Source: SAR202 cluster bacterium Io17-Chloro-G4
GTDB lineage: Bacteria; Chloroflexota; Dehalococcoidia; Lucifugimonadales; UBA3495
Direction of reading: 5' to 3'
DNA length: 39,281 bases
NCBI GenBank assembly: GCA_002816455.1
Contig: MUCR01000063.1
Coordinates: 1 to 39,281 of the forward strand
In this document: positions 23,368 through 26,730 of the stretch, piece by piece
Position numbering within the stretch: the first letter of the stretch is position 1
Layout of the letters: each line of letters starts with the position of its first letter
The notes under the pieces: model-generated
The model's input: only the letters and a program-made list of their open reading frames with translations
The model's database searches: none
What the model was told of the DNA's origin: nothing
Position numbers and translations under genes: made by a program

Positions 23368-23485
23368 TCCCGGCGGTGACCTATTTTCCCACCCCGTTAC
23401 CAGAGCAGTATCGTCGGCGCTGAGGCGTTTCACTACCGTGTTCGGGATGGGAACGGGTGGGGCCACCTCGCTCGAACCACCAGGA
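23368..23485 (-). rRNA. rrf: 5S ribosomal RNA, solitary
   Basis: About 118 bases. The minus strand contains the universal 5S core CCCATCCCGAACACGG and GTGAAACGCCTCAGCGCCGA, then GGTAACGGGGTGGG. Helix I is formed by TCCTGGTGG (5' end) and CCGCCGGGA (3' end), nine pairs including two G-U. No 23S or 16S sequence is present on either side: the 246 bases upstream lead directly to the promoter of the GuaB-like gene on the opposite strand. The 5S gene is therefore separate from the large rRNAs, at least at this locus. Confidence 0.95.
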
Positions 23486-23731: not shown

Positions 23732-24874
23732 ATGGGTAGGCGCCTATTTAAGGAACTGGAAAGAGTCTACGGTTTCGACGAAGTGGCGATTGTTCCTGGA
23801 CAGGTGACCATCAACCCGGAATTGACCTCCACTAAAATGTCCATTGGTGACCGGGGTTTTGACATCCCGGTTTTGGCCTCCGCCATGGACGGAGCAGTTT
23901 CCCCCCACTTTGCAACGCTTATGCACGAGATGGGCGGTCTGGGCGTCCTAAACGCCGAGGGGCTCTACACCCGCTACGAAGACCCCTACTCTGTCTTAGA
24001 AGAGATTGTCTCCACCCCTCAAGAAGACGTCACACATTACCTGCAAGAAGTGTACTCTGAGCCGATTCGCGAGGAGTTGATCGGCCAGCGAGTCCAAGAA
24101 ATCCGAGCCTCCGGCGCTACCTGCGCCGTCTCTTTCACTCCCCAGAACACGAAGCGCATGTCTCCCATGGCTGTTGAGGCCGGGGCCGATATCGTGTTCG
24201 TCCAGTCCACGGTGACCACCGCAAGACACATGTCACGAAGCTACCGTGGTTTGGTCTTTTCCGAATTAGTCAAAGCCCTCAAGGTGCCGATAGTGGTGGG
24301 CAACTGCGTGACCTACGACGTGGCCAGGGAGCTCATGGAGACCGGCATAGACGGGGTGTTGGTTGGGGTGGGTCCAGGCGCCGCTTGCACCACCAGAGAG
24401 GTCGTCGGTGTCGGCGTGCCGCAAGTAAGCGCAACTTTGGAATGCGCCGCCGCCAGGGAAGATTACTTCCGACGCACCGGCCGTTACGTGAACATTATTA
24501 CCGATGGTGGTTTCCGCACCGGCGGGGACATTTGCAAAGCAATAGTTAGCGGGGCCGACGCTGTAATGCTGGGGACGCCCTTCGCCCAAGCCAATGAAGC
24601 GCCCGGCCACGGATTCAACTGGGGCATGGCCAATCCTCACCCCGAGTTACCCAGGGGTACCCGCATTAAGGTAGGCACCAAGGGCAGCCTACAACAGATA
24701 CTCTACGGGCCAACTTCCCGCACAGACGGCACCCAGAACTTCATGGGAGCGTTGCGAGTTGCCATGGGAATGTGCGGCGCTTACACAATCCGGGACCTGC
24801 ATAAGGCCGAAATGGTGATTGCTCCGTCCATCAAGACCGAGGGCAAATACTTCCAGTTCGCTAACGGCGGCTGA
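23732..24874 (+). CDS. IMP dehydrogenase-related protein (GuaB3 type)
   Basis: A 380-residue TIM-barrel protein of the IMPDH/GMP reductase family. Barrel motifs are FDEVAIVPG, FDIPVLASAMDGAVSP, GGLGVLNAEGLYTRYED, and the active-site loop GVGPGAACTTREVVGVGVPQ with the candidate catalytic Cys219, then IITDGGFRTGGDICKAIVSGADAVMLGTPFA. It has no CBS domains and is about 100 residues shorter than true GuaB, matching the GuaB3 group found in Actinobacteria and Chloroflexota. The exact reaction of that group is less certain than for GuaB. It may share a transcript with the selenoprotein gene 81 bases downstream. Confidence 0.9.
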   Translation: MGRRLFKELERVYGFDEVAIVPGQVTINPELTSTKMSIGDRGFDIPVLASAMDGAVSPHFATLMHEMGGLGVLNAEGLYTRYEDPYSVLEEIVSTPQEDVTHYLQEVYSEPIREELIGQRVQEIRASGATCAVSFTPQNTKRMSPMAVEAGADIVFVQSTVTTARHMSRSYRGLVFSELVKALKVPIVVGNCVTYDVARELMETGIDGVLVGVGPGAACTTREVVGVGVPQVSATLECAAAREDYFRRTGRYVNIITDGGFRTGGDICKAIVSGADAVMLGTPFAQANEAPGHGFNWGMANPHPELPRGTRIKVGTKGSLQQILYGPTSRTDGTQNFMGALRVAMGMCGAYTIRDLHKAEMVIAPSIKTEGKYFQFANGG

Positions 24875-24955
24875 GCAGTCCGCACTAAGAAAAGCTTTCA
24901 AAGCCGCTGTCTTTGAGGCTGTCGCCTCAACCATGTCACATTTGGAGTAAACAAT

Positions 24956-25486
24956 ATGCCCACTATTCAGATTCTTGATCCTACTGCCGAAGATGTGCCC
25001 GAAGAACTGGGATTGAGTCCCAAACTTCCAGACCTGCGCGGAAAAGTTGTGGGATTGTTGGAAAATCGCAAGTACCATGCCGACTCTTTCCTTCAAGAAC
25101 TGCAGGAGGTCTTGGTCAGTGATTTTGGGGCGGAAAAAGTAATCTACGCGACCAAATTTAGCTACAGCGCCCCATGCGCCGATGAAACGCTGGACTCACT
25201 CACTTCCGAGTGCGATGTGGTGGTTCACGCCATCGCTGATTGAGGCTCCTGCACGGCGTGGGGTCTCCACGACACAGTAAAGACCGAGTCCAAGGGCGTT
25301 CCTTCAGTTAGCGTCATCACCAGCACGTTCACTCGGGCTGCCCTTGCCAGGGCAACGTCCCTGGGCATGCCTGGCGTTCGCATCGTGGTCTTGCCCAGTC
25401 CATTGGCCACCCGGAGCCCGGAAGACGTGCGGAAGATGGCCCACGAATATGCTCCCGAAATCGTGGGGCTGGTGGCTGGCGACTAA
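24956..25486 (+). CDS. UGSC-family selenoprotein, Sec96 encoded by in-frame TGA
   Basis: The first 95 codons (MPTIQILDPTAEDVP to VVHAIAD) end at TGA 25241-25243. The same frame then continues open as Gly-Ser-Cys-Thr-Ala-Trp through VPSVSVITSTFTRAALARA and MPGVRIVVLPSP to TAA 25484-25486. Read with TGA as selenocysteine, the product has 176 residues and the motif U96-G-S-C99, the defining motif of the UGSC (seleno)protein family. A hairpin 13 bases after the TGA fits a bacterial SECIS. TTGGAG precedes ATG 24956. The Sec/Cys pair suggests thiol-type redox chemistry, but the family's reaction is not established. Translation needs SelA, SelB, SelD and tRNA-Sec, which must be encoded outside this window. 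Confidence 0.92.
25241..25271 (+). promoter_or_regulatory. Sec codon TGA and SECIS-like hairpin
   Basis: TGA is at 25241-25243. Thirteen bases further, CGTGG (25257-25261) pairs with CCACG (25267-25271) around loop GGTCT. The loop begins 18 bases after the TGA, inside the bacterial SECIS range, and contains the GGUCU sequence also found in the apical loop of the E. coli fdhF SECIS. G62-T66 could wobble-pair, leaving GTC. Confidence 0.8.
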
Positions 25487-25608: not shown

Positions 25609-26730
25609 ATGGCTACCAGGAACAAGCCCTCAAATCTAAACCCATCTAGGCAGGAATTCATAGTGAACCCCATCGCTCTTCAGGCTCGCCGCATAGATGT
25701 TCCAGACAGCTTTGAGGCGGTCCAGGACTATTGCTGGGAGCAAGGTTGGACCGACGGTATGCCGGTGGTCCCGCCCACTGAGGAAGCGGTGCGCCGGATG
25801 CTGGCGGGTTACGGGGAAGACCCGGCCCTCTCACTAGGAGTGATTCAACCCCGGAACGCAAAAGCGACTCTAGAAAAGATTGCGATAAATGCTGTGATGG
25901 CCGGATGCGTGCCTGAATACTTCCCGTTGGTTGTAGCTTCTGTGCAGGCAGTACTCAAAGAGGAGTTCAACGTAGCCGGTGTTTCCGCCACCACGGGAGG
26001 CGGAGCTCCCGTAATTATCGTCAATGGTCCCATAGCCAAAGAATTGAACATAAACGGCGACGCCGGTTGTTTCGGTCCGGGCTACCGGGCTAACGCCGCC
26101 ATAGGAAGAGCGCTTCGCTTGGTGATACGCAACTTGGGTGGACTCATCCCGGGTGAGATGGACAAGGCGACGCTTTCAACAACTGGAAGGTATAGCTTTT
26201 GCTTCGCTGAAAACGAAGAGCGTAGCCCTTGGGAACCCCGCCACTTAGAACTGGGCTATGCGCCGACTGACAATATCCTGACCATTATCGGCATCAGGGG
26301 CGTCTATACAGTCATGGAAACGACGGTACCCACGGGAACTGAGGTGCTGCGGACCATCGTCGCCACGATGAAGGCTGGAGGCGTCTCCAACTATTACCAG
26401 ATCGGGACGGGCGCTCAAATCGCATTGGTCTTGTGTCCTGAGCATGCCCAAGACATTGCGACATCCGGTCTATCCAAGGCCGACGTGCGGGAGTACATCT
26501 TCCAGAATGCTCGTATGCCCATCCGCCAGCTAAAAGACATGGCCCATTGGGGAAACCGGAATTGGCCAGCCTGGGTAGACGAAGACAATCCGGAAACGCT
26601 GGTGCCTATTGCCCGCTCGGTAGACGATATCGTGGTGATTGTCGCAGGCGGTGACGGCCGACACTCTGCTTGGTTAGCCGGTTGGGGTGTAACCAGGGTT
26701 GTTACCCAGCAAATTCAGCTGCCATCTTAG
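25609..26730 (+). CDS. Conserved protein neighbouring the UGSC selenoprotein
   Basis: A 373-residue protein whose function I do not recognise. It has an ordered, conserved-looking core: SFEAVQDYCWEQGWTDGMPVVPPTEE (about 35-60), the Gly-rich GVSATTGGGAPVIIVNGP, GDAGCFGPGYRANAAIGRALRLVIRNLGG, SFCFAENEERSPWEPRH and a C-terminal VIVAGGDGRHSAWLAGWG. No signal or membrane segment. ATG 25609 has no ribosome site; GTG 25663, with AGGAA six bases upstream, is a good alternative start giving 355 residues. It sits 122 bases after the selenoprotein on the same strand, and a functional link is likely. Conserved Cys in AGCVPEYF and GDAGCFGPG might exchange with the Sec. Confidence 0.82.
   Translation: MATRNKPSNLNPSRQEFIVNPIALQARRIDVPDSFEAVQDYCWEQGWTDGMPVVPPTEEAVRRMLAGYGEDPALSLGVIQPRNAKATLEKIAINAVMAGCVPEYFPLVVASVQAVLKEEFNVAGVSATTGGGAPVIIVNGPIAKELNINGDAGCFGPGYRANAAIGRALRLVIRNLGGLIPGEMDKATLSTTGRYSFCFAENEERSPWEPRHLELGYAPTDNILTIIGIRGVYTVMETTVPTGTEVLRTIVATMKAGGVSNYYQIGTGAQIALVLCPEHAQDIATSGLSKADVREYIFQNARMPIRQLKDMAHWGNRNWPAWVDEDNPETLVPIARSVDDIVVIVAGGDGRHSAWLAGWGVTRVVTQQIQLPS

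Follow-up and report, generated by a model that had tools for sequence, protein, structure and literature searches.

A UGSC-family selenoprotein gene with a putative selenocysteine codon, and its conserved partner gene, in a SAR202 cluster bacterium

Is the TGA at which a standard ORF caller ends a 95-aa product in this SAR202 cluster bacterium a true stop, or is it a selenocysteine (Sec) codon inside a longer gene? The window, by which we mean the whole 39,281-nucleotide stretch of DNA analyzed, is contig C63 of a 1.92 Mb assembly that is 71% complete. Three features of the window define the question:

24956–25486, forward strand: UGSC-family selenoprotein gene, 176 aa with Sec at residue 96, TAA stop codon included
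24944–24947, forward strand: GGAG, a plausible ribosome binding site 8 bases 5' of the ATG, from reading of the sequence
25241–25243, forward strand: TGA predicted to be read as Sec, residue 96 (the U of U-G-S-C), from homologues, Cys forms and synonymous bias

From the start ATG at 24956, 95 codons precede the TGA. The next three codons, GGC TCC TGC, give Gly-Ser-Cys, and the same frame stays open for 80 codons past the TGA until it ends at the TAA (25484–25486). When the TGA is read as Sec, residues 96–99 form the U-G-S-C motif and the product has 176 residues. The letters and coordinates on which the original prediction was built, an open frame beyond the TGA beginning with Gly-Ser-Cys, proved correct.

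The translation belongs to a named family, as had been proposed. It matches PF24696 ("UGSC") with 172.6 bits against a cut-off of 25 and NF041046 ("UGSC family (seleno)protein") with 141.5 bits against a cut-off of 125, and both matches span the TGA. Furthermore, each half matches the same families alone: residues 1–95 with E-values of 4.2e-19 (PF24696) and 2.2e-12 (NF041046), and residues 97–176 with 7e-23 and 2.3e-20, respectively, single halves scoring below the NF041046 cut-off, as fragments should. Because residues 1–95 and 97–176 each find these families independently, a chance open frame is excluded, and the matches across the TGA and by each half indicate that the sequence beyond it is protein-coding in the same frame. 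The translation, together with family matches before and after the TGA, thus bears out the proposed product of 176 residues, with Sec at codon 96, rather than 95. These results support the view that the gene extends past the stop codon at which routine annotation would end it and that its full product contains Sec; the gene is an expected new member of a known family.

Could the TGA nevertheless be a true stop or a decayed codon, leaving a product of 95 residues, as standard ORF calling has it? A search of 30 related genomes, the organism's own included, found 134 UGSC homologues in 23 genomes, and exactly one in-frame TGA is common to all of them (134/134), which argues against a stop. In the 64 distinct Sec-type sequences read, the TGA lies at the U-G-S-C site or a variant of it. 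Among ten distant named loci (L074–L083), five carry CGSC (L074, L076, L077, L080 and L081; one Archaeoglobi and four Novosphingobium or Sphingomonadaceae), four carry UGSC, one of these with the Sec form in two genes, and in one, L082 (Ruminococcaceae), the site is occupied by neither Sec nor Cys. Cys in place of the TGA in five distant loci also speaks against a stop. It speaks equally against the possibility that UGA encodes tryptophan or some other residue here, as these five loci have Cys at the site and none has Trp. The original prediction depended on homologues having Cys or Sec at this position and similarity past the TGA; Sec or Cys was found, and the similarity continues.

The two sides of the TGA seem to be under similar constraint, since their synonymous bias is similar, which is again unfavorable to a true stop. 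Compared with L041, a same-genus copy, the window gene has 43 identical, 42 synonymous and 10 changed codons among the 95 before the TGA, and 41 identical, 29 synonymous and 10 changed among the 80 after it; third-position changes prevail in both parts (8/4/46 before and 10/4/33 after). Cys99 is kept in 66 of 67 UGSC sequences. Motif variants occur in other copies, namely U-G-T-C (L106, L107 and L111), U-G-A-C (L122) and U-C-T-C (L102), and a fused subgroup (L104, L105, L109, L110 and L115) has U-G-G-C after His, not U-G-S-C after Asp.

The search for selA, selB, selD and tRNA-Sec that the original prediction called for gave a divided answer in the organism's own assembly. SelB and SelD are over the cut-off, whereas SelA and tRNA-Sec are not over it in this 71% complete assembly, and their absence can be counted in favor of a true stop. 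Incompleteness is the simplest reason for these gaps. SelA is over the cut-off in 27 of the 30 genomes, and a tRNA-Sec match of more than 60 bits is present in 25 of the 30, including the same-genus genome G001 (68.4 bits), where ARAGORN calls it tRNA-SeC with anticodon tca; SelA, SelB and tRNA-Sec were all found in G001. Genes for Sec synthesis are thus present, SelB and SelD in the own assembly and SelA and tRNA-Sec in G001, and the existence of SelB, SelD and a same-genus tRNA-SeC is a second point against UGA being read as tryptophan. Eight tRNA-Sec matches in the own genome were set aside as ordinary tRNAs (Ser, Trp, Arg, Tyr, His and Gly by ARAGORN). The own SelD (L140, G000:C24, 44–1099) has an in-frame TGA at codon 21 of its open frame and is probably a selenoprotein itself. 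In genome G019, SelA and SelB are over the cut-off, whereas the tRNA-Sec matches do not exceed 47.3 bits and UGSC is absent.

The original prediction also pointed to a hairpin with the loop GGUCU that starts 13 bases past the TGA:

25257–25271, forward strand: bacterial SECIS apical hairpin, by comparison (60 of 64 Sec forms)

The pairing is present, with arms at 25257–25261 (CGUGG) and 25267–25271 (CCACG) enclosing the loop GGUCU at 25262–25266, the hairpin starts 13 bases past the TGA, and it is conserved among Sec homologues. The comparison drew on the region of the site in 69 non-identical sequences, 64 with Sec and 5 with Cys; L082, which does not have the motif, and L094, whose truncated gene is represented by another entry, had been left out. 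The criterion for a stem was an uninterrupted run of four or more base pairs enclosing positions +19 to +23 after the codon as a five-base loop. The stem is present in 60 of 64 Sec forms and in 0 of 5 Cys forms, counts that are not independent events, as the sequences are related to each other. Resampling of synonymous codons (1000 trials) yielded a mean of 6.2 stems and a maximum of 14 compared with the 60 observed, and when the 3' arm was slid by 1–3 bases, at most 3 of 64 kept the stem. The stem types include GUGG/CCAC (51), GUGC/GCAC (4) and AUGG/CCAU, GUAC/GUAC and GCGC/GCGC (1 each), and at all four pairs next to the loop, changes occur in both arms. Paralogues differ in the loop. Similarly, in the 43 sequences that read Trp-Gly-Leu-His-Asp, Gly is GGT in 43/43, Leu is CTC in 42 and His is CAC in 43, compared with a background in which GGT makes up 716 of 4395 Gly codons (16%) in pooled genes. 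The predicted hairpin is thus kept beyond what the amino acids require, at a fixed spacing. Four of the 64 Sec forms are without the stem in the common register. L078, L079 and L083, which are Burkholderiales-type Sec forms, have no common-register stem, and their computed fold is a hairpin a few bases earlier.

The evidence for this putative hairpin is comparative, not energetic. The 66-nt stretch 25235–25300 folds no more stably than shuffled versions (z −0.13), and the hairpin is not its minimum-energy fold; in the 45 nt after the TGA, on the other hand, the hairpin lies within the minimum-energy fold. Rfam searches of the window and of 25150–25400 gave no SECIS family match, and Rfam SECIS_1 gave none in the own genome, a result that carries no information, as controls gave none either.

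The conserved hairpin adds to the evidence against a true stop, which we regard as highly improbable, and a reading of UGA as tryptophan or another residue appears more improbable still. The identification of 24956–25486 as a UGSC-family selenoprotein gene with Sec at codon 96 holds. Judging from the sequence comparisons, it is almost certain that SelB would read the SECIS hairpin 13 bases downstream and that UGA would be translated as Sec, producing a 176-residue protein with a U-x-x-C active site.

Does this protein act alone? The original prediction, right about the gene and the hairpin, had not seen the gene that lies next downstream, the number of copies per genome or a relation to GrdB/PrdB. 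The downstream gene is:

25609–26730, forward strand: partner gene, 373 aa, conserved part starting near 25681, from linkage and fusions

Neither Pfam nor NCBIfam has a match for the partner protein; with 39 members of its alignment as queries, matches stayed at chance level (best E 0.03), and a sequence search against the PDB gave none. In the same 30 genomes, the partner was found in the same 23 (143 matches, some of them fragments). It lies within 350 bases of the UGSC gene in 108 of 134 cases and within 2.5 kb in 125 of 134, and all 125 are on the same strand, upstream or downstream, with none opposite; of the remaining UGSC genes, 7 have their nearest partner farther off and 2 have none on the contig. 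In other loci, 19 distinct single-ORF fusions of UGSC and partner without a TGA between the domains were observed, ten of them from nine named distant loci. L038 (the same place as L100) was rejected as a fusion, as a TGA separates its two domains. UGSC fused to a domain named Unknown_1 has already been reported (accessible part of PMC2398784), and Unknown_1 is likely the partner seen here. The linkage and the fusions indicate that the UGSC protein is, very probably, one half of a conserved two-protein module whose parts act together.

Upstream of the gene, the context is also well conserved among the closest relatives:

23732–24874, forward strand: guaB3 (IMP dehydrogenase-related), upstream neighbor, TIGR01304 433.7 bits against a cut-off of 342.1

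The 33 closest named loci (L041–L073) have UGSC proteins 68–88% identical to that of the window, the closest being from Dehalococcoidia bacterium UBA1141; their records are labeled mostly Dehalococcoidia, SAR202 cluster or Chloroflexi, with three labeled otherwise. In 31 of these 33 loci, guaB3 lies upstream of UGSC (partial at the contig end in some). Could the UGSC–partner pair then work in purine metabolism together with guaB3? The flanking genes of the other copies suggest that it does not. We chose 94 of 194 candidate ORFs flanking other copies in 20 regions, and these neighbors are varied oxidoreductases, esterases and transporters; the commonest families are MFS transporters (6), short-chain dehydrogenases (5), luciferase-like monooxygenases (4) and GMC oxidoreductases (4), and IMP dehydrogenase families do not appear in the list of the 25 most frequent ones. 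The genes of this sample are mixed, with no single pathway; they fit small-molecule metabolism and prove nothing. A role in purine metabolism is therefore unlikely. The UGSC proteins of L043, L070 and L073, labeled Planctomycetaceae, Proteobacteria and Rhodothermales, are 68–75% identical to that of the window, and L043 and L073 also carry a partial guaB3 that is 86% identical; either wrong binning or transfer would account for the labels. A 5S rRNA gene (23368–23484, reverse strand, 86.7 bits) lies between guaB3 and a ClpC-looking gene, the latter named by eye.

The gene is one of several in its genome. The own assembly holds three more UGSC copies, and 18 genomes of the same family have 2 to 11 copies each. 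Of 100 other genomes of the phylum, 5 have UGSC, with 1 to 3 copies each.

What kind of chemistry might the module perform? One answer is that UGSC is a plain thiol/selenol redox selenoprotein, thioredoxin-like, which would reduce disulfides or peroxides and not attack a substrate carbon. The U-x-x-C motif favors this role, and a thioredoxin-like fold was suggested for UGSC in the GOS paper (accessible part of PMC2398784). The predicted structure points elsewhere. An AlphaFold model built from 45 sequences, with Sec modeled as Cys, has a mean pLDDT of 92.9, and its five strands and five helices alternate strictly (b-a-b-a-b-a-b-a-b-a), as in a flavodoxin-like fold; Sec96 lies directly after strand 88–94 and before helix 97–112. 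The fold is thus predicted to be flavodoxin-like alpha/beta, with Sec at the end of a central beta strand, where a helix starts. Foldseek gave weak PDB matches to this model, mostly generic alpha/beta with TM-scores of about 0.3–0.5; the rows include lumazine synthases, a NagZ domain, flavodiiron and flavodoxin-like domains and LarB, and no thioredoxin is among the best 50. The published thioredoxin-like suggestion is not supported by the predicted model. A model of the fused relative L081 (pTM 0.82, mean pLDDT 79.9) had no PDB match below E 1e-3 (best 1.2e-3), and in neither Foldseek search, UGSC or L081, did a named enzyme family fix a function. By sequence, the best PDB match of UGSC had an E-value of 0.24.

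A second answer comes from GrdB and PrdB, the selenocysteine subunits of glycine/betaine/sarcosine and D-proline reductases. We compared profiles of 67 UGSC sequences and 34 GrdB/PrdB-like sequences from the clade and phylum with hhalign, and the two aligned Sec on Sec over 73 columns with 94.3% probability (E 1e-7). The score was 52.7 compared with a best of 23.5 among 100 column-shuffled decoys (at most 5.5% probability), and with the Sec column masked, the match still reached 88%. Smaller, shallower profiles gave 81% and 68% for UGSC versus GrdB (two runs), 7% when only PrdB-like sequences were used and 27.5% after masking of the Sec column; block shuffling (ten columns per block) produced one decoy among 60 that scored 39.9, compared with 40.0 for the real match. 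Control pairs gave 3.2% (UGSC versus GrdE) and 8.2% (partner versus GrdB/PrdB), and the partner was rejected as a GrdE relative, with a profile comparison of 0.2%. No match of the window UGSC to PF07355 was listed at E up to 10; the PF07355 search of 61 phylum genomes gave 1 match. Sequence searches of GrdB and PrdB-like proteins against the PDB were not convincing (best E 0.015 and 0.074, respectively). These profile comparisons suggest that UGSC is likely a distant relative, not a member, of the GrdB/PrdB Sec domain.

Further observations concern the GrdB/PrdB-like genes themselves. In several of them from the clade, a hairpin lies at about the same distance after the TGA (10 genes; SelD is less clear). 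The GrdB-like genes L185, L186 and L199–L209 have U-G-T-C, nearer to the UGSC motif than the U-G-T-S read in seven other clade GrdBs, and GrdB adjoins a GrdE-type gene (PF09338) in several genomes. The own genome has a PrdB-like gene (L164, G000:C34, reverse strand) with an in-frame TGA and the motif U-P-L-C, about 2.4 kb from one of its other UGSC copies.

The partner linkage, the predicted flavodoxin-like fold and the GrdB/PrdB kinship together favor a nucleophilic selenol enzyme built with the partner. In GrdB/PrdB, a selenolate attacks the substrate. By analogy, the UGSC protein and the 373-aa partner would form a complex in which the partner holds a small organic substrate and the selenolate attacks one of the carbons or heteroatoms of that substrate; Cys99, as the resolving residue, would close a selenenylsulfide and release the product, and cellular dithiols would reset the selenenylsulfide. 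The several copies per genome may be versions for different substrates. This sequence of attack, release through Cys99 and reset by dithiols, taken as one scheme, is a tentative proposal that we rate slightly short of an even balance. A thioredoxin-like redox role, against which the alternating strands and helices, the fold matches and the profile relation to GrdB/PrdB all weigh, seems to us less probable than the nucleophilic alternative, yet it deserves real weight; a redox role on a non-thioredoxin fold is compatible with all of the fold and profile evidence. As a whole, the data are probably best explained, in our judgment with good confidence, by a Sec protein that forms a module with its partner and may carry out GrdB/PrdB-like nucleophilic selenol chemistry.

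UGSC is among the commonest selenoproteins of ocean metagenomes, with 255 Sec forms and 21 Cys forms in the GOS study (accessible part of PMC2398784). It made up 8.2% of selenoprotein genes in another report (accessible part of PMC9402790), and a 2016 survey listed 33 UGSC genes in 26 organisms (accessible part of PMC5029168, Table 3). The accessible parts of PMC2398784, PMC13188914, PMC9312934, PMC5330540, PMC9402790, PMC5029168 and PMC7539508 state no function for it, and a 2026 review describes the functions of its group as largely uncharacterized (accessible part of PMC13188914). A literature search on SAR202 and selenoproteins found none; as most subscription journals lay outside it, absence is not proven. 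Standard ORF calling halves UGSC-type genes in this uncultured marine lineage. Apart from family membership, what adds interest is that the partner is constant, that copies are numerous and that kinship with GrdB/PrdB is likely. Linking UGSC to one partner and to the Sec domain of GrdB/PrdB makes this orphan accessible to testable questions about an enzyme. GrdB/PrdB-type selenol chemistry is known from anaerobic amino-acid fermentation. It is conceivable, though we would not yet favor it, that UGSC and its partner represent a new two-component (or fused) class of selenoenzyme that uses such chemistry on small substrates outside that setting, in up to 11 versions per genome of SAR202-type ocean bacteria.

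How does the locus compare with known systems? The hairpin has the same GGUCU loop and the same 18 bases from UGA to loop as the E. coli fdhF SECIS, but its stem sequence is different. Thioredoxin-fold selenoproteins have the U-x-x-C motif in common with the window protein, whereas its predicted fold differs from theirs. GrdB/PrdB (PF07355) and UGSC have three sequence features in common, an Asp preceding the strand, U-G-[ST], and E-x-x-G-[IV]-P following the helix; on the other hand, UGSC is without the long N-terminal part and without a PF07355 match, and its partner is not GrdE by profile. The closest likeness is to the UGSC family itself (PF24696/NF041046 and the GOS UGSC proteins), which the window protein matches over its full length with Sec-Gly-Ser-Cys at the same place. 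According to the accessible part of the GOS paper (PMC2398784), many of those proteins have Sec and some have Cys, as do the homologues of the window gene; compared with the fusions reported there, the window copy is unfused, with its partner gene next downstream. Finally, its clade carries 2 to 11 copies per genome, compared with the 33 genes in 26 organisms given in the accessible part of the 2016 survey.
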